Assembly (NCBI GenBank): GCA_026415985.1
Contig: JAOAGA010000044.1
Span: forward strand, 8,382-14,913
Origin: Pseudomonadota bacterium
GTDB lineage: Bacteria > CALINM01
DNA: 6,532 nucleotides
Reading direction: 5' to 3'
In this document: one piece after another, positions 52 through 6,532 of the stretch
How positions within the stretch are numbered: position 1 is the stretch's first letter
How the letters are laid out: every line of letters starts with the position of its first letter
Translations under genes and position numbers: made by a program
The notes under the pieces: model-generated
The model's input: only the letters and a program-made list of their open reading frames with translations
What the model was told of the DNA's origin: nothing
Database searches by the model: none

Positions 52-1005
52 TTATCTGATTTGATATTTGCCTAAACCAAAACTTGTGTTCTTTCCTACG
101 TGTAAGATTTCTCCTGCCTTAAGTATCTGAGTAAAGGGAGAAATTTTACCTGTGAATGTTACCGAACCTATGAGCCCTCCTAATCTCATTCTTGTTTGTT
201 GTCTTGTGGAGTATCTTTCCCAATCCCACCATCTCAGATTGTCTTTTGAAACGGTTACGTTTTTTGACAGTTCTATGATTTTTTTGTAATCCCATTCTGA
301 CTTTGTACCATCACAGTGAAAAAAATGGAGTAAGTCTATCCTCATTAATAGTGACTTGACGAGTATGGAAAAATCAAGTTTTGTTACGAGGTCTTTGTTG
401 TTTTTTAGTCTTAAGGGGGTTTCGAAATTTAATGTGAGGGACGTATCTTCTCTGTCTTCGGCATCAGATATTTTCTCATCTATGTTGATTTCTTCATAGT
501 CAGGGGGTATTATATTGCTTTTTTCATCATCGTAAACTTTTTCGCCTCTATGGGAATAAACTTCTTTAACTTTGAAATGACCGCGTCCTTTTCCAATACC
601 AATTTTGCCACATTCGATAAAGGTGTAGATAAAATAGGGTAGATATGATCTTGCCTTGCCTATGAGTATTAAAGAAAAGGTTATATTTTCATTGGCTGAA
701 AAAAACTTTTTGCTGTTTAAGGGAGGTTCAATAATAAAGGGGTGTGGAATATTTTTGTTGTTACCCTTTTTGAAGAAGGGTTTATCCAAAGGTTCCGGCG
801 TTTCAAATACGTAGGCGTATATACAACTTTGCTTTAGGATACAGTTATCGCACGTTCTTGTTTTTAAGGCACATACTACTTTTTTAAATGTGTTTCCAAA
901 CACACCTCTGAAGGTGGATCCTTTAAAGTAGGGAAGACTGATAGTTTCCGTTGCAATAATTTTGAAGTTGAGTTTGATATAGGGAATTTTCATTGTTATT
1001 TTCAT
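52..1005 (-). CDS. cas6: Cas6-family CRISPR RNA-processing endoribonuclease (RAMP superfamily)
   Basis: A 317-residue protein resembling Cas6, the metal-independent endoribonuclease that cuts pre-crRNA within the repeat to give mature crRNAs. Seen here: an N-terminal RAMP-like part with FRGVFGNTF (residues 32-40), a four-cysteine cluster C45-x6-C52-x2-C55-x5-C61 that looks like a zinc knuckle, a glycine-rich GIGKGRG segment (136-142) and a C-terminal glycine-rich loop GKNTSFGLGKY (304-314), the usual Cas6 signature. The length is a little above typical Cas6, the extra being the Cys region. It is the last gene of the operon, 42 bp after the second cas2. The start is uncertain: ATG at 1005 and an in-frame ATG at 993 (MKIPYIKL) both lack a clear ribosome binding site. 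The catalytic residue cannot be assigned by eye because Cas6 active sites vary. The family call is fairly sure; which array it serves is unknown. Confidence 0.87.
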   Translation of the reverse strand: MKITMKIPYIKLNFKIIATETISLPYFKGSTFRGVFGNTFKKVVCALKTRTCDNCILKQSCIYAYVFETPEPLDKPFFKKGNNKNIPHPFIIEPPLNSKKFFSANENITFSLILIGKARSYLPYFIYTFIECGKIGIGKGRGHFKVKEVYSHRGEKVYDDEKSNIIPPDYEEINIDEKISDAEDREDTSLTLNFETPLRLKNNKDLVTKLDFSILVKSLLMRIDLLHFFHCDGTKSEWDYKKIIELSKNVTVSKDNLRWWDWERYSTRQQTRMRLGGLIGSVTFTGKISPFTQILKAGEILHVGKNTSFGLGKYQIR

Positions 1006-1047: not shown

Positions 1048-1326
1048 TTATTTTAGGAAGATTGTTACACCTTCAGGTATTCTGTCTCCCTGACCCATAA
1101 CTATTACTTTAGGTTCAGAAGGAAGCGGATAGATTCTGACATCGTCCTGATTTTCGTCGATAAGTTCCAGTAATCTCTCTTTTAGTTCATTGAGCTCCTG
1201 CCAGCTAAGATAGCCATAAAATACAGAGTATTGAAGTTTGAGGCATCTGCTTTTTAGATAGTTGTGAATTTTTGTTAGTCTTTTCTCGTCTCTGATGTCA
1301 TAAGATATTAAATAGTTTGATTTCAT
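1048..1326 (-). CDS. cas2: Second Cas2 paralogue (Cas2'), CRISPR adaptation
   Basis: A 92-residue Cas2-family protein with a ferredoxin-like fold. Cas2 dimers bridge Cas1 dimers in the spacer-integration complex. Seen here: the first strand YLISYDIRDEKR with the conserved Asp at residue 10, then SVFYGYL, the ELxELKERLLELI helix and DDVRIYPLP, all typical Cas2 elements. The ATG start overlaps the TGA stop of the upstream cas1-like gene in an ATGA arrangement, with AAAGGG 6 bp upstream, so translation is coupled to that gene. It differs clearly from the other Cas2 in this window (3077-3358), so it is a paralogue and not a recent tandem copy. The C-terminal tail (residues 73-92) also differs. 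It could pair with Cas1', with Cas1, or with the first Cas2 as a heterodimer; the sequence does not decide this. Confidence 0.92.
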   Translation of the reverse strand: MKSNYLISYDIRDEKRLTKIHNYLKSRCLKLQYSVFYGYLSWQELNELKERLLELIDENQDDVRIYPLPSEPKVIVMGQGDRIPEGVTIFLK

Positions 1327-2129
1327 CTCTTGCCCTTTATTATTAGCTTTATTTCTTTTAAAAAGGTTTGAAGTAGTCTGTCAAAAATTGGCTTTCCCTT
1401 TTCAAAAAGAGAGATTGTTACTCTCATGCCTTCGTCATTGAGCCAGTTACCGTTGTAAAAATCTTTATATTTCCGATAGCACAAGATTTTTGCAGAGAGA
1501 ACATCCATAATGGGATCTACAACGCAAAGGAGATCACAAACAAAGCCGAATCTCTTTTTATCGTTAATTATACCGATTTCCGGGTTTAACTCTTCTGATA
1601 TACATTTGGCTGTTATCAGGCCAATAAACAGGTCTTTGAATTTTCTCCTTGTGTTGAAAAATTTTTTTCTTTCATTATTGCAGAATTTCATTATGTAGTA
1701 GAAATATTCTTTATCTGTAAAGCTGTGGGTTTTTAATGCTTTATAAAGGTTTTTGTCGAAGGATTTTATGGCATATATTTGTATCTGCTTTTTCTTTTCA
1801 ATAAGCCAGGTGTGAAACTCAGTTTTTATTTCTTTTTTATTTATTGCTATTCTTTGCGGTATTTCCTCGAAGTATCCGCTGTCAGAGACGGGTATTATAT
1901 GAAGTGAATCGTTTTTATAGAGGCTTGTTATTACCGCAGGTTTTTTAAATCTTAAGAATTCTCTCAGGATATCCTGATTTATCTTTTCTTTGCTGTCTAT
2001 GTGAACAAAATCAATGTATTCGTATGGAATCCTTCTGGGTGATTGGTTATTTTTGTTGACCAATAGGGAGGGGCCGTCTATTTTTATAATGTAGTCTTTT
2101 GTGTTATGAAGATATAGTGTCTTTTTCAT
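1323..2129 (-). CDS. Divergent Cas1 paralogue with degenerate active site (Cas1')
   Basis: A 268-residue protein homologous to Cas1 but much diverged. The N-terminal beta domain lines up with the neighbouring Cas1: TLYLHNTKDYIIKIDGPSL here against TLYIDRKDLHIKLDGNSL there. In the helical C-terminal domain LNPEIG (181-186) matches LDPSIG of the true Cas1. The catalytic His that follows in Cas1 is Asn189 here; Asp199 (VCDLL) is retained and a nearby acidic residue of Cas1 is replaced by Cys202. The first catalytic Glu is uncertain (perhaps E141), since the usual EGxxSxxYF context is lost. The ATG at 2129 is chosen over an in-frame TTG at 2147 because AAGGAGG lies 7 bp upstream of it. The gene overlaps the end of cas1 by 26 bp and the start of cas2' by 4 bp. 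The intact frame and tight coupling argue against a pseudogene. It is probably an inactive or structural Cas1 subunit (inference). Confidence 0.82.
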   Translation of the reverse strand: MKKTLYLHNTKDYIIKIDGPSLLVNKNNQSPRRIPYEYIDFVHIDSKEKINQDILREFLRFKKPAVITSLYKNDSLHIIPVSDSGYFEEIPQRIAINKKEIKTEFHTWLIEKKKQIQIYAIKSFDKNLYKALKTHSFTDKEYFYYIMKFCNNERKKFFNTRRKFKDLFIGLITAKCISEELNPEIGIINDKKRFGFVCDLLCVVDPIMDVLSAKILCYRKYKDFYNGNWLNDEGMRVTISLFEKGKPIFDRLLQTFLKEIKLIIKGKR

Positions 2130-3063
2130 CTGTAAGCCTCCTTGCAAAATTTGTTATATCTTCTCGTATTCTTGGCCTAAGGGTTTTTCGCCATTCTTCA
2201 GAAAGGGGATAAAATTTTGCTCTGCCGTTCTTTTTTAAGTAACAACCTGAAGTATCGGTTTCAATTATAAAGTCGTTTGCTATTATTTGTCTTGTTTTAA
2301 AGAGTTCCCAGACGAATTTGTCTGCCTCTGCACGGTATTTCTCAACAAAATCGCAGGCTAAGGATTCTCTACCATATTCAAAGCTATGATAGAAGCCAAT
2401 AGAGGGATCTAAACCAATCATCTCAATCTCTCTGACACATTCAAAATGAAGAAGGGTGTAGGTAAGTGACAGCATTGCGTTAACGGGGTCTTTAGGAGGT
2501 CTTCTGTTTCTATTGGTAAAATTGAGAGATGGAGCAAAAAGTTTGGTATAAAAGGAAAAATATAGGTTGCTTGCACCACCTTCATATCCTCTTAAGCTTT
2601 CTAAAGTCAGGTTTTCATTGTCAATTTTTCTTATAATTTCGTTCAAAGAATCTTCTGTCTTTGTTGCGTCGTAACGTAAATCCTGCCTTTGGTCTTTACA
2701 GAAGTTTATAAAATCTATCTGACTAAAAATCTTTTCCTTAACAAGGTTTTTCGAAAAATCTATGATGAAGTTTCCTTTATAGTTTTCATATTGTCTCAGT
2801 CTTAGCAGGGCGTTGTTGTGAAGAGAGCCGTGAAGCATCCCCGCAAATCTGAGATTTTTTGCGGTCAGAAAGATCAGGCTTATATTTTCATCGGCAAGCT
2901 TATGAAAAACATTTGAATCAATGGTTACATTTCCAACTACTATTATTCTTTTTATTGGATAGAGTGGCGCATTGCCTTCTTTTTGCCCATTTATGTAGAA
3001 TGCGAGAGAATTGCCATCTAATTTAATGTGAAGGTCTTTTCTGTCAATATAAAGGGTGCCCAT
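2104..3063 (-). CDS. cas1: CRISPR-associated integrase/endonuclease Cas1
   Basis: A 319-residue Cas1, the metal-dependent integrase that with Cas2 inserts new spacers at the leader end of a CRISPR array. Seen here: the N-terminal beta domain (residues 1-85) with TLYIDRKDLHIKLDGNSL, then the helical catalytic domain. The expected active site is present: Glu161 in GYEGGASNLYF, His226 in LDPSIGFYHS and Asp238 in ESLACDFVEKYR, with NRRPPKDPVNAMLSL between them. Length is normal for the family. The ATG is supported by AAAGGAGG 7 bp upstream, a site that overlaps the stop codon of cas2 (13-bp gap). Its 3' end overlaps the second, degenerate cas1 by 26 bp. This copy should be the catalytically competent one of the pair. 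No reverse transcriptase or other fusion is seen. Confidence 0.96.
   Translation of the reverse strand: MGTLYIDRKDLHIKLDGNSLAFYINGQKEGNAPLYPIKRIIVVGNVTIDSNVFHKLADENISLIFLTAKNLRFAGMLHGSLHNNALLRLRQYENYKGNFIIDFSKNLVKEKIFSQIDFINFCKDQRQDLRYDATKTEDSLNEIIRKIDNENLTLESLRGYEGGASNLYFSFYTKLFAPSLNFTNRNRRPPKDPVNAMLSLTYTLLHFECVREIEMIGLDPSIGFYHSFEYGRESLACDFVEKYRAEADKFVWELFKTRQIIANDFIIETDTSGCYLKKNGRAKFYPLSEEWRKTLRPRIREDITNFARRLTDEKDTISS
2137..2143 (-). promoter_or_regulatory. Ribosome binding site fixing the cas1' start
   Basis: AAGGAGG on the minus strand, 7 bp before the ATG at 2129 and inside the last codons of cas1. It decides for the ATG over the in-frame TTG at 2147, which would lie upstream of this site, and shows that the degenerate Cas1 has its own strong initiation signal. 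Confidence 0.8.
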
Positions 3064-3076
3064 ATTTTGTCCTCCT

Positions 3077-3358
3077 TTAACCTATATAAAAATAATCAGG
3101 GTCCTGCGGTTGAATTGCAATACCTAAGGTGTGGGTTTTACTTCTGCCATCGAGTGTAAAAATATGAATTCGGTCTTCAAAGGGGTGTATCAGATTCATC
3201 AGGCCATTTTTTACTTTCTCTAACTCCGCAGGACTTAAAAAACATTCATAAACGGACTTCTGCCCGCCGGTGCTAAAGTTTTTAAGGAAGTAATGGACCT
3301 TAGCAAGGCGTCTTTCATCGGATATATCATATGCAACTATATAAAGCGTTCTTGACAT
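3077..3358 (-). CDS. cas2: CRISPR-associated protein Cas2
   Basis: A 93-residue Cas2, the dimeric structural subunit of the spacer acquisition complex. Seen here: the first beta strand YIVAYDISDERR with conserved Asp11, RLAKVHYFLKNF, GGQKSVYECFL and DRIHIFTLDGRS, in the order expected for Cas2. The C-terminal tail ends in DPDYFYIG. It precedes cas1 by 13 bp. The ATG is preceded by a weaker ribosome binding site (AAGGGG, 7 bp away) that sits in the loop of a short perfect inverted repeat, described separately. A 75-bp gap separates it from the upstream DUF4258 gene. It is the first gene of the adaptation block in transcription order and is one of two Cas2 paralogues in the window. Confidence 0.95.
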   Translation of the reverse strand: MSRTLYIVAYDISDERRLAKVHYFLKNFSTGGQKSVYECFLSPAELEKVKNGLMNLIHPFEDRIHIFTLDGRSKTHTLGIAIQPQDPDYFYIG

Positions 3359-3378
3359 GATTAAACCCCTTTTTAATC
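3359..3378 (-). promoter_or_regulatory. Hairpin placing the cas2 ribosome binding site in its loop
   Basis: A perfect 7-bp inverted repeat directly abuts the cas2 ATG. On the transcript it reads GATTAAA, then AAGGGG, then TTTAATC, then ATG. The six loop bases are the ribosome binding site itself. The stem is all A-U except one G-C pair, so it is weak, particularly if the host is a thermophile. The distal arm also carries the stop codon (TAA, 3373-3375) of the possible 17-codon reading frame upstream, so a terminating ribosome would disturb the stem. The inverted repeat is seen directly; a regulatory role is inference. Confidence 0.35.
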
Positions 3379-3426
3379 TTTTAAAATCACATAAATCAAA
3401 ATTAAAAGAATAATAAGAGTTTCCAT
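3373..3426 (-). CDS. Possible 17-residue hydrophobic leader/membrane peptide
   Basis: A very short frame in the gap between the DUF4258 gene and cas2: ATG at 3426, 17 codons, translation METLIILLILIYVILKD, stop TAA. The middle is a continuous hydrophobic run flanked by a Glu near the start and Lys-Asp at the end, like a tiny single-pass membrane peptide. GAGG lies 4 bp upstream, a short but tolerable spacing, and overlaps the TAG stop of the preceding gene. Its stop lies inside the inverted repeat around the cas2 ribosome binding site. Against it: AT-rich DNA readily encodes Ile/Leu runs by chance, and no family is recognised. It may be a leader peptide, a small membrane protein or nothing. 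Confidence 0.3.
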   Translation of the reverse strand: METLIILLILIYVILKD

Positions 3427-3433
3427 TTTTCCT

Positions 3434-3736
3434 CTAATGTTGTCTGTATTTCTTTAAACTGGGATTCTTAAAACCTGTTATTACAATCTTTTCATCTCCA
3501 TAGGGCTGGACAATAATGTTAAGTCCTTCCGCACTTCTTAAGTCAATTCCAAGTTTGCGCGCCTTTTCAACCTCTTTCTTGCCTACAAAATAAATCTCTG
3601 CTCCATTTGAATAAAATTTCCTTCCGTGAATAACAGCAAGATTGAAGAGTTCATCATTAATCCGTCTTGCTGAAAACCTTTTTAGGGAGTGGTCAGTAAA
3701 AATAAATTTTTTGTTCCTGATAATTTTTTCTGCCAT
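3434..3736 (-). CDS. DUF4258-family small protein in CRISPR operon
   Basis: A 100-residue protein resembling the DUF4258 family, small proteins thought to share a fold with BrnT/RelE-like toxins; their activity is largely uncharacterised. Seen here: the family-type N-terminal signature TDHSLKRFSARRI with H16, R20 and R24 (HxxxRxxxR), then GRKFYSNGAEIYFVGKKEVE (39-58), a GxNIIV strand, and IVITGFKN near the end where other members often have a VxTxYRN-like strand. The ATG at 3736 is chosen over one at 3805 because AAAGGAGG lies 8 bp upstream of it; the longer version would only add a poor, chance-like N-terminus across the regulatory gap. It sits between the csx3-like gene and cas2 with the largest intergenic gap of the window in front, so it may be separately regulated. 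It could be an RNase-like toxin or an operon regulator; no antitoxin is seen beside it. Confidence 0.72.
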   Translation of the reverse strand: MAEKIIRNKKFIFTDHSLKRFSARRINDELFNLAVIHGRKFYSNGAEIYFVGKKEVEKARKLGIDLRSAEGLNIIVQPYGDEKIVITGFKNPSLKKYRQH

Positions 3737-3737
3737 G

Positions 3738-3777
3738 GTTCTATCCTCCTTTGCATCTTTTAATTCAAGGATAGAAC
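3738..3777 (-). promoter_or_regulatory. 10-bp inverted repeat overlapping ribosome binding site of DUF4258 gene
   Basis: A perfect 10-bp inverted repeat: on the coding strand GTTCTATCCT (3777-3768) and AGGATAGAAC (3747-3738), separated by 20 bases. The proximal arm contains the AGG end of the AAAGGAGG ribosome binding site (3752-3745) and finishes one base before the ATG. In RNA this would form a stem hiding part of the ribosome binding site. In DNA the two arms could be the half-sites of a dimeric repressor. The repeat is seen directly; which of these roles applies, if any, is inference. Confidence 0.5.
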
Positions 3778-3820
3778 AGTTTTGAAAAAATAATAATAAA
3801 ATCAACGTTTTGAAAACATT

Positions 3821-3836
3821 TAGGAAACGTTTCCTA
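3821..3836. promoter_or_regulatory. Perfect 16-bp palindrome of LacI-family operator type
   Basis: TAGGAAACGTTTCCTA reads the same on both strands. The AAACGTTT centre with a middle CG step is characteristic of operators bound by LacI/GalR/PurR-type repressors. It lies between the csx3-like gene and the DUF4258 gene. A poor promoter match lies upstream (TTGATC at 3888-3883, 17 bp, TTAAAT at 3865-3860), which would place the palindrome just downstream of a start site; that promoter is only a weak guess. It is not a convincing terminator because no T-tract follows directly. No LacI-type regulator is encoded in the window. Confidence 0.4.
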
Positions 3837-3868
3837 TAAGATTAGCTTACAAAATCTTGATTTAAATT

Positions 3869-4123
3869 TTAGAAGGGAGAATGATCAAAAATAGTTACAT
3901 CACCGGTTACAGGTGAACGGTAAGTTAACTTTATAACTTTTCCATGTAAACAATGGGCAACTTTCAAATAGAGCCAGATAGGCCCCTGCCCGGTAATTAC
4001 AATCTCATTACCTTCCCCTGCTATTTGAAGTGCCTTTTTACAGTATTTATCTAAATCAGCAAGTTTGGCGGTAGAGTCTTCAGTCTCTTTGTATAAGTCT
4101 TCAACGTTTAAAATTATCTGCAT
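3869..4123 (-). CDS. csx3: Csx3-like protein, possible cyclic oligoadenylate ring nuclease
   Basis: An 84-residue protein resembling Csx3 (Crn3), a small type III accessory protein reported to bind and cleave cyclic tetra-adenylate and so switch off signalling. Seen here: EIVITGQGPIWLYLKVAHCLH (40-60), matching the Csx3 core with a G-x-PxWLY motif and an HxxH pair (H57, H60), followed by a strand ending IFDHSPF with D80 and H81. Odd points: the YDPR-type segment I expect from the family is YRSPVTG here, and the chain ends at the last His with no C-terminal tail, so it is shorter than usual members (about 100 or more residues). AAAGGA lies 7 bp before the ATG, inside the end of the upstream gene (3-bp gap). 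Its place right behind two CARF effectors fits an off-switch or signal sink. Activity may differ from classical Csx3. Confidence 0.72.
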   Translation of the reverse strand: MQIILNVEDLYKETEDSTAKLADLDKYCKKALQIAGEGNEIVITGQGPIWLYLKVAHCLHGKVIKLTYRSPVTGDVTIFDHSPF

Positions 4124-4126
4124 AAT

Positions 4127-5623
4127 TTATCCTTTCAACAGTTCTTTTTTTAAGATACCCTCTAATTCATCTAAACAAGCATAAGCAATATTGTGTTTCT
4201 CTGCGTTATTTCTTTGCTCAATGATTTTATTATCAAAGTAAGATGGATATTTTATTGTCCCATTATCTCTTATTTCAAGAGATTTTAATAGAGGTCCAAC
4301 TATGATGGTTTTACTGTAGGGACCACTTTTCTTCAAAGTTTGGTTTTCTTTTCCTTCAATTGTATCCCCTGAAAAATCATATGTCTTAGCTTCAAGGACT
4401 AATGTGGTTCCAAACCTTGTTGTGATAACAATATCAAGCTCTGCATCTTGTTGAGCATTTTCTCTAAGTGGCTTGGTTTTAACCCCTAAATGGATTTGAG
4501 CTACCTTACTTTTTAATTCAGTATTCTGCTCAATAATACCTAAAATTTTGCTTGCTACCATCCACTCAAAAAGATGACCGTTTCTATCAAACACTGAGAA
4601 GGCTTCTACACAGGAACGCTTTATAATATCAGAGCAGTCCTCTGAAATTTTACCACCTAATGATTTTATTTGTTCCTTGATGATATTGATTTTTTCCTGA
4701 GAGATTGGTTCATTTATTAATGGATAATCCTGTTCGTTGATCTTTTTATTAAGTTCATCAATTAAGGCACGTTTCATATCGTTCCAATACTCATTGAAGA
4801 TTTCCTCAGGATTTTGTATTAATTTAAGAGGTTTTATTAATTCTCTTATTCGAAAAATGTCATTACTTTTAGTAAGTTCCTTAATTAAACTGCCTATCTT
4901 TTTTTCAAGGTCTTCGTAGCCTGCACTTTTTATCTTTAATTCGTTAACCTTAGGTTTTATTGAATTAAGAAATTTTCTAATTTGATTTTCTATTCCTCCC
5001 TTGACTTCATCGACAACTGGATTAGGTTTCATGATAGCAAAAAATAGTTTTCTAAAAGTTTCTTCCTTTTCATAATAATCAAGTGCTTTTTTGCCCACAT
5101 CTAAATTACGTTGACAGTCTTTATCGGCCTCTGGGAAGATTTGTGTTTTTTCATAGGCATTCGTATTATAAAGAGTAAAAATATCATCAAGAGAGATATA
5201 TGCATCAGCAGTAATTTCCATAACCTTTTTATGCTGATTGTAAATTAAATACTTTGTGGTATTAGCCTCAAAATAAATTATCAGGTCCTCATATTTATTA
5301 GAGACTCTATTTAGAAAGGCTTCATACATAGCCAAACTGTGGTATTTTTGACCACCAGTTATATTCCAGAGAACATATTTAATTGAGGTTGTCTCCTCTA
5401 AAAACTGATTTTTTAGTTCATTGATATCCCTTTCTTTTTCGACATTAAAAAATTTGCTTTTAATATTGTGTGCCTCGTAAACCTTTTTTAGGTTAAGCCC
5501 TCTTTCCTTTTCTGTGGTAGCAATAATAACACTTGGTATTTTAAGCTGTATCACAGGCAAAAAGTTTACCGTCTGATTTCCCGTAGAAAAGCAAAACATA
5601 TGGTATTTGTTAAATATAGTCAT
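4127..5623 (-). CDS. CARF-domain PD-(D/E)XK nuclease (Card1/Can2-like, enlarged)
   Basis: A 498-residue protein combining an N-terminal CARF sensor with a C-terminal restriction-like nuclease, as in the Card1/Can2 (DUF1887-related) effectors, which cut nucleic acid when cyclic oligoadenylate binds. Seen here: a Rossmann-like CARF part (about 1-150) with the ligand-loop motif WNITGGQK (86-93); a long, charged, mostly helical middle (about 160-345) with no recognised domain; then the nuclease core with E353 (GHLFEWMV), D397 (AELDIVI) and E411-x-K413 (LVLEAKT), followed by KKSGPYSKTIIVG as in relatives. It is larger than Card1 (about 370 residues), the extra being the middle part. It starts 3 bp after the csx1 stop with no clear ribosome binding site, which suggests translational coupling. 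Whether it prefers DNA or RNA cannot be told. Confidence 0.85.
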   Translation of the reverse strand: MTIFNKYHMFCFSTGNQTVNFLPVIQLKIPSVIIATTEKERGLNLKKVYEAHNIKSKFFNVEKERDINELKNQFLEETTSIKYVLWNITGGQKYHSLAMYEAFLNRVSNKYEDLIIYFEANTTKYLIYNQHKKVMEITADAYISLDDIFTLYNTNAYEKTQIFPEADKDCQRNLDVGKKALDYYEKEETFRKLFFAIMKPNPVVDEVKGGIENQIRKFLNSIKPKVNELKIKSAGYEDLEKKIGSLIKELTKSNDIFRIRELIKPLKLIQNPEEIFNEYWNDMKRALIDELNKKINEQDYPLINEPISQEKINIIKEQIKSLGGKISEDCSDIIKRSCVEAFSVFDRNGHLFEWMVASKILGIIEQNTELKSKVAQIHLGVKTKPLRENAQQDAELDIVITTRFGTTLVLEAKTYDFSGDTIEGKENQTLKKSGPYSKTIIVGPLLKSLEIRDNGTIKYPSYFDNKIIEQRNNAEKHNIAYACLDELEGILKKELLKG

Positions 5624-5626
5624 ATT

Positions 5627-6532
5627 CTAAATGGCATCAATAAGCCAGTTGCTTATTGTTTCAATAAACTCTTTATTGTACCTGAAAAATATATTATCAT
5701 CAGATTTTTTATACTCTGTTACATTACTTTCAAATCCAGCGTGGGCAAAGAAGTTTCTCTTTTGCGGAGAGGTAACTTCCCTATCATAATATAATGATTC
5801 TGCAAGCCTTTTCCAGTCATTGGAATCTTTGATATTTTTTAATCTATCCAGTTCATTTCCAAGTACCGAGTCATTTAAATTTAGCTTGTAATAATTATAA
5901 ATTTCTTTAAATGCTGGTCTTATCTTATTCAGCTCAACTTCTTCAATTTCTTTTATATCAACCTCTATTAGCTTTTTTGATAACCCTAAATAAAATCCAA
6001 AGGTATGTAAGACTTTTATATAATCACTTTTAACAAGATTTGGTGTTTCTGAATAACTTTTCTTTAAATTTGCCTCCATAATTTCCAAAAAAATTCTAAA
6101 TTGATTCTTCAAGTAATTTGTATCTAAATATCCGTTCATATACAAAAACAGTGGAGTGTTATTTTTTATTGCTGAGAAAGTCAGCCCAAAACTTTTTAAA
6201 ATTTTATGCAATTCCTTTTTTAGTGGTCTACTTTGATCAGTAGAAAAAATTTTTTTTGCAAGAGTTGTATTATTTATATCATCTTTACTTACTGGAGATG
6301 AAAAAAAGATCCTTGATTTATGTTCCTCAAAGGTAATTCTGAAAGGTCCTTTGAAACCTGAAATTATTGGCTCTGAAACTGCTATCTCGAAAGTGGTTTT
6401 CAAATCGTTCCATTTATTTAATCTCAGCCATGTATCGATATGCTTTAGGGATTCTATAAGTGCTGATACATAGTTATTATGGCCACTTGAAATATCGATG
6501 ATTATTTTCTCTATTTGATCGCCTTCCTCCAA
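5627..6532 (-). CDS. csx1: Csx1-family CARF-HEPN RNase (5' end outside window)
   Basis: The C-terminal 301 residues of a protein resembling Csx1 of the MJ1666 type, a type III ancillary RNase activated by cyclic oligoadenylate. Seen here: the CARF motif IIIDISSGHNNYVSALIE (residues 10-27 of the visible part), a helical linker, then a HEPN domain with the catalytic R-x4-H motif RNFFAHAGFE (R259, H264; bases 5758-5741). HEPN RNases use this Arg/His pair as a dimer to cut single-stranded RNA. The first strands of the CARF domain are missing because the frame runs off the right edge; the TTG at 6532 is not a believable start. It stops 3 bp before the CARF nuclease gene, so both are likely in one transcript. 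The family call is firm; the ring size of its activator cannot be inferred. Confidence 0.87.
   Translation of the reverse strand: MEEGDQIEKIIIDISSGHNNYVSALIESLKHIDTWLRLNKWNDLKTTFEIAVSEPIISGFKGPFRITFEEHKSRIFFSSPVSKDDINNTTLAKKIFSTDQSRPLKKELHKILKSFGLTFSAIKNNTPLFLYMNGYLDTNYLKNQFRIFLEIMEANLKKSYSETPNLVKSDYIKVLHTFGFYLGLSKKLIEVDIKEIEEVELNKIRPAFKEIYNYYKLNLNDSVLGNELDRLKNIKDSNDWKRLAESLYYDREVTSPQKRNFFAHAGFESNVTEYKKSDDNIFFRYNKEFIETISNWLIDAI

Follow-up and report, generated by a model that had tools for sequence, protein, structure and literature searches.

A probable type III CRISPR adaptation operon encoding a second, active-site-less Cas1 and two diverged Cas2 proteins, a candidate for a naturally asymmetric spacer integrase

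Introduction

The ordinary spacer integrase is homomeric, with four Cas1 and two Cas2 subunits, and its inner positions hold Cas1 copies identical to the others, with active sites that go unused. In Cas4-containing integrases, Cas4 and the PAM are the source of asymmetry. In known integrase structures, half of the Cas1 subunits are non-catalytic (PMC12259127, PMC8102632), and the known integrase, although C2-symmetric, has to be placed on the CRISPR leader in a single orientation (PMC12259127). Some states of the Cas4-containing integrases are asymmetric PAM/non-PAM complexes, according to the title of structure 7mi5. RT-Cas1 complexes combine a catalytic Cas1a with a non-catalytic Cas1b (PMC8102632). 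Cas1 homologues with an incomplete catalytic set also occur outside CRISPR operons as Cas1-solo group 1 (Krupovic 2014, as cited in PMC9939771 and PMC9755687).

The locus described here resembles the ordinary integrase loci in having an intact Cas1, the Cas2 fold and a cas6 in the operon, but differs in a separate gene for a Cas1 without active site (here Cas1') and in two diverged cas2 genes (cas2A and cas2B). In contrast to Cas4-containing integrases, no cas4 was seen at the locus. Cas1' is, like Cas1-solo group 1, without the full catalytic set, but its gene is placed between cas1 and cas2B. Modules from Sphaerotilus, Aeromonas and Allochromatium have a Cas1 of the same clade and matching Cas2A and Cas2B, but no cas1' gene. 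A second type III locus of the same genome (contig C110, L013 1849-12563) encodes Cas10, RAMP proteins, one catalytic Cas1 in a Cas6-RT-Cas1 fusion and one Cas2, and has its own array. Nothing relevant on a double Cas1 or a double Cas2 was found in the searched literature, which mostly excluded subscription papers, and within that scope the layout is undescribed, as the initial annotation had supposed.

Organization of the locus

The window, i.e. the whole stretch of 6,532 nucleotides analysed, is the terminal part of its contig, and the contig end is the window end. The source genome (1.57 Mb, 84% complete, 161 contigs) belongs to a bacterium known from its genome alone. The main genes of the window are all encoded on the minus strand and are listed in the order of transcription:

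5627..6532, minus strand, Csx1-type CARF-HEPN effector, truncated by the contig end (Pfam Csx1_HEPN 2.5e-17; PADLOC CARF9--CARF_HEPN 3.5e-72)
4127..5623, minus strand, CARF-PDDEXK effector, Card1/Can2-like (Pfam CARF_Card1 7.6e-7; PADLOC CARF4--CARF_PDDEXK 8.5e-32)
3869..4123, minus strand, csx3, csx3/crn3 ring nuclease family (Pfam Cas_csx3 1.7e-6)
3434..3736, minus strand, orf6, about 100 aa, matching no family in Pfam or PADLOC
3077..3358, minus strand, cas2A, 93 aa, paralogue type A (Pfam PF09827 2.3e-17)
2104..3063, minus strand, cas1, 319 aa (Pfam PF01867 6.8e-73)
1323..2129, minus strand, cas1', 268 aa (Pfam Cas1 1.7e-5, barely over the curated cut-off)
1048..1326, minus strand, cas2B, 92 aa, paralogue type B (Pfam PF09827 6.3e-19)
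52..1005, minus strand, cas6, crRNA-processing endoribonuclease (Pfam CRISPR_Cas6 6.1e-18; PADLOC Cas6 7.1e-109)

The four-gene cluster cas2A-cas1-cas1'-cas2B was recovered from open reading frames and Pfam with the coordinates and overlaps that the initial annotation had given. cas1 and cas1' overlap by 26 bp (2104-2129), and cas1' and cas2B by the 4 bp ATGA (1323-1326). The cluster is wider than these four genes, with cas6 as a further member downstream and csx3 and two CARF effectors upstream. The copies, which had been called clearly diverged, share about 20% (Cas1 and Cas1') and about 32% identity (Cas2A and Cas2B). Cas2A carries the motif STGGQKSVYE, with a conserved C-terminal third, and Cas2B the motif LQYSVF. 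The overlaps suggest translational coupling; the further claim that the four products are made in fixed proportion is more than they imply, and cas1' is preceded by its own strong Shine-Dalgarno sequence, AAGGAGG.

Of a type III system, CARF effectors, Csx3 and Cas6 are encoded at this locus, but the contig ends at csx1, and the Cas10 found in this genome is encoded on contig C110, with its own Cas6-RT-Cas1. A casposon or Cas1-solo element (Cas1 with a PolB-type polymerase and inverted repeats, without Cas2) was rejected, as two cas2 genes and cas6 adjoin the Cas1 genes and no polymerase was recognised among the open reading frames of the window contig.

An Rfam search of the window gave no match, and promoter and terminator scans gave no enrichment over shuffled sequence. 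Between orf6 and cas2A (3371-3424, minus strand) lies a very short ORF for a hydrophobic peptide, METLIILLILIYVILKD, that has a Shine-Dalgarno-like sequence. Its counterpart in the related genome MAG SKW176, MLEFLMFIIIISLFLIIKE (L004 804-863), occupies the same place despite diverged flanking DNA; the product is a candidate single-pass membrane peptide. A further feature, some 85 bases upstream of orf6, is the perfect 16-bp palindrome TAGGAAACGTTTCCTA (3821-3836), which looks like a repressor operator and is partly altered in MAG SKW176.

Recurrence in a second genus

The layout is not confined to one genome. A search of three genomes of the phylum detected the same module in MAG SKW176 (JAOABK010000012.1), which belongs to another genus of the same family. 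The gene order csx3-orf6-cas2A-cas1-cas1'-cas2B-cas6 is that of the window, and both overlap lengths match (26 bp for cas1/cas1', 4 bp for cas1'/cas2B). Amino-acid identities between the two genera were 83% for Cas2A, 61% for Cas1, 46% for Cas1', 72% for Cas2B and 54% for Cas6. A third genome of the family is without the module, and its single Cas1 belongs to another kind. One of the two operon-bearing contigs is 57 kb long and includes chromosomal genes such as cysS. On a different contig, MAG SKW176 also encodes a csm module of type III-A.

A Cas1' profile run over 386 genomes found only the two known genera; a weak match in genome G299 proved to be an unrelated protein. Cas1' was not found in viral contigs and plasmids, and a non-exhaustive scan of genome contigs with two short peptide patterns returned MAG SKW176 alone. 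A PF01867 survey of the 386 genomes contained no adjacent strong Cas1 pairs among the matches listed. Cas1' is known from two genomes of one family.

No CRISPR array was detected on the 14.9-kb contig of the window, nor in the 17 kb examined of the MAG SKW176 contig. Both contigs stop upstream of the operon and, since they end nearby, the operon is tied to no array or effector module.

The csx3 and orf6 DNA (3434-4123 of the window, L004 1-681) is 93-95% identical between the genera (csx3 93%, orf6 94-95%), while the adjoining cas genes are 68-77% identical. The high identity ends at the end of orf6. This pattern points to a recent exchange of the upstream accessory part and agrees with the module shuffling known to occur near cas6 and the adaptation genes (PMC6452270).

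Cas1 and Cas1'

The catalytic residues of Cas1 (E161, H226, D238 and E241) are all present, and in the alignment these four positions (Glu, His, Asp, Glu) are conserved in 29-30 of the 30 canonical Cas1s. As in an adaptation module, a Cas1 with the Glu-His-Asp/Glu active site is encoded alongside Cas2, here two of them. The closest solved relatives of Cas1 are Cas4-containing integrases, namely I-C (8d3l) and the I-G Cas4/Cas1 fusion (7mi4/7mi5).

The Pfam Cas1 match of Cas1' was weak in the window (1.7e-5) and absent in the MAG SKW176 orthologue, and Cas1' would therefore be overlooked by routine annotation. An HMM search of the PDB using the two Cas1' proteins alone recovered no Cas1. Profile comparison (hhalign) of the Cas1' pair with the 30 canonical Cas1s aligned 260 columns with a score of 65.6, compared to a top score of 24.8 among 200 column-shuffled controls. 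An AlphaFold model (pLDDT 82, pTM 0.84) superposed on Thermotoga maritima Cas1 (4xtk) over 261 residues with Z 23.6 and rmsd 3.2; its alignment included four canonical Cas1s, which favour the Cas1 fold. The two orthologues by themselves gave a poor model (pLDDT 53), with secondary structure similar to that of the better model. By profile and model, Cas1' is a genuine full-length Cas1 with an N-terminal beta domain and a C-terminal helical domain.

At the catalytic positions, Cas1' of the window has M147 in place of Glu, N189 in place of His and C202 in place of the second acidic residue, and D199 alone is kept. MAG SKW176 has Met, Asn, Asp and Ser, respectively. Of these assignments, that of the Glu position is the least secure, but no Glu conserved in both orthologues occurs in its vicinity. 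Having lost the catalytic Glu, the catalytic His and one acidic residue of the pair, Cas1' should be catalytically inactive in both genera. The initial annotation was silent on these missing residues.

Between the window and MAG SKW176, the reading frame of cas1' is intact, with pN 0.34 and pS 0.80, the latter near saturation. Therefore, cas1' has long been under purifying selection. Cas1' also diverges faster than its operon neighbours (46% identity compared to 54-83%), which fits weak constraint as well. An origin of Cas1' from the neighbouring Cas1 gave p 0.485 in the AU test, which leaves both outcomes standing.

An older Cas2 pair shared with relatives

The closest named relatives of Cas1 are plasmid-borne, in Sphaerotilus sulfidivorans (37% identity), Aeromonas media (31%) and Allochromatium vinosum (about 29%). 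The genes are arranged as cas2-cas1-cas2 in S. sulfidivorans and in A. media pMC64A (type III-B), and as cas2-cas2-cas1 in A. vinosum pALVIN01. All three modules adjoin CRISPR arrays. In the Cas1 tree, the window Cas1, these relatives and the broken Cas1 of genome G361 (see below) formed one clade (support 100/97), and its apparently intact other members, which are the three plasmid modules, encode two Cas2s each. No more members were found in a further 400 and 386 genomes.

Phylogenetic analysis of Cas2 separated the upstream Cas2s, as a Cas2A clade (99/96), from the remaining ones, as a Cas2B clade (83/70), the two being sister to each other (96/86). A Cas2 duplication private to the window lineage was rejected (AU p 0.018); the trees rest on 80 columns and have long branches, so that this result is good and not final. 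The cas1 loci sampled elsewhere comprised 77 with one Cas2 and four with none in the stretch examined, a few loci being counted twice. Outside the Cas1 clade of the window, two Cas2s occurred among the sampled cas1 loci only in G299 (L010 825-2415), where one cas1 and two adjacent cas2 genes lie beside an array. These Cas2s branch apart from the A/B pair, and cas2 doubling may therefore have arisen more than once.

On these sequences, the Cas2 doubling predates Cas1' and is shared by relatives with one Cas1. Most simply, the ancestral unit was cas2A-cas1-cas2B, and the window lineage later gained Cas1' by insertion between cas1 and cas2B; the alternative that every other lineage lost it is less simple. 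The initial annotation had read the cluster as one doubled, mirror-ordered module, and this reading gave way to that of an old Cas2 pair with a later added Cas1'.

In a further relative, G361, from another phylum, cas2A and a broken cas1 were present and cas1' was not detected. Its cas1 (contig C145, L066 1480-2862) breaks off near residue 220; next to it comes a VapBC-like toxin-antitoxin pair that looks like an insertion, and the neighbouring cas6 is broken as well. The module of Allochromatium tepidum pAt1 (L060 5339-7023) is closely related to that of A. vinosum and possibly decaying: no type A cas2 was found in it, and an ORF annotated as a PEGA-domain protein contains the type B cas2. 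In A. media pMC64A (L058 7260-8291), a toprim-domain gene separates cas2-cas1-cas2 from the genes of the type III-B effector.

Between the two genera, identity over the C-terminal third is 97% in Cas2A and 90% in Cas2B, compared to 60-84% for the other parts. The C-terminal part of Cas2 contacts Cas1 in Cas1-Cas2 structures, and such conservation is expected if each Cas2 has its own fixed partner surface.

Discussion

The locus is best read as a type III CRISPR-Cas adaptation operon whose spacer integrase would be built from unlike subunits, a complex that we infer and to which we give a probability of about 0.5. Cas2A and Cas2B would form the central heterodimer of a four-Cas1/two-Cas2 integrase, with Cas1 in the outer catalytic positions. 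Cas1' would take the inner non-catalytic positions as the dead structural partner of Cas1 on the Cas2A-Cas2B core. With the dead paralogue, contacts to Cas2 and the CRISPR repeat would be assigned to one kind of subunit and DNA joining to the other, while the unlike Cas2s of the core would render the two ends of the complex different. More speculatively, this asymmetry might help to orient the prespacer or to pick the leader end.

If the idle position had its own gene, one would expect just such a dead Cas1, kept by selection next to a live one. A heterodimeric core best explains why the two Cas2s have stayed together, across phyla, in loci with one Cas1. The heteromeric integrase of the initial annotation thus stands as the best explanation, strengthened by the lost active site of Cas1', with the complex itself still conjectural. 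Against the mixed-integrase reading, the relatives in the clade have two Cas2s and do without Cas1', which is thus not needed in general. The stronger version, an obligate hetero-oligomer in which the catalytic and structural Cas1 roles are split over two genes, Cas2 is a permanent heterodimer and subunit identity chooses the spacer end or leader side, is tentative and somewhat short of an even chance.

It is unlikely that the operon encodes two complexes, Cas1-Cas2A for ordinary integration and a non-integrating Cas1'-Cas2B acting, e.g., in prespacer capture, protection or regulation. Such a division would account for the ATGA coupling of cas1' to cas2B in both genera, for cas2A adjoining cas1 and for the distinct, highly conserved Cas2 C-termini. 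However, relatives without Cas1' keep cas2B beside their sole Cas1, which argues that Cas2B is not there to serve Cas1'.

Cas1' might also be a brake, forming non-productive dimers with Cas1 that limit spacer acquisition and guard against self-immunity. We consider this improbable: a dead subunit from the same operon could be dominant negative, and two CARF nucleases are encoded at the locus, but cas1' is not separated from cas1 in regulation, and this role is a matter of deduction.

That Cas1' is a decaying duplicate heading for loss, with no role of its own, is also quite improbable. The gene has lost its active site, evolves fastest in the operon and is absent across the wider Cas1 clade, but a full-length ORF persists in two genera at 46% identity with pN well below pS, the overlaps are conserved and a complete fold is predicted, and chance retention over such divergence is unlikely.

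An assembly or binning artefact or a chance similarity is very improbable and already contradicted: both records are MAG contigs, MAG SKW176 has 5% contamination and csx3-orf6 is far more similar between genera than the rest, but the two contigs are independent, carry continuous operons and in one case extend over 57 kb with cysS, and the Cas1' homology score is far above the shuffled controls.

The recurrence of the operon in another genus makes it probable that the spacer-storing CRISPR enzyme exists here in a naturally asymmetric version. With single-gene Cas1 copies, it is difficult to examine how active and idle subunits are assigned, or how the two ends are distinguished when neither Cas4 nor a PAM is involved. 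Here the roles are perhaps on separate genes, and each position would then be mutable alone. The Cas2 part is testable at once, since Allochromatium vinosum and Sphaerotilus, which are named and culturable, also have the Cas2A/Cas2B pair. If the hetero-oligomer is indeed obligate, the genes themselves would break the symmetry of the classical integrase.
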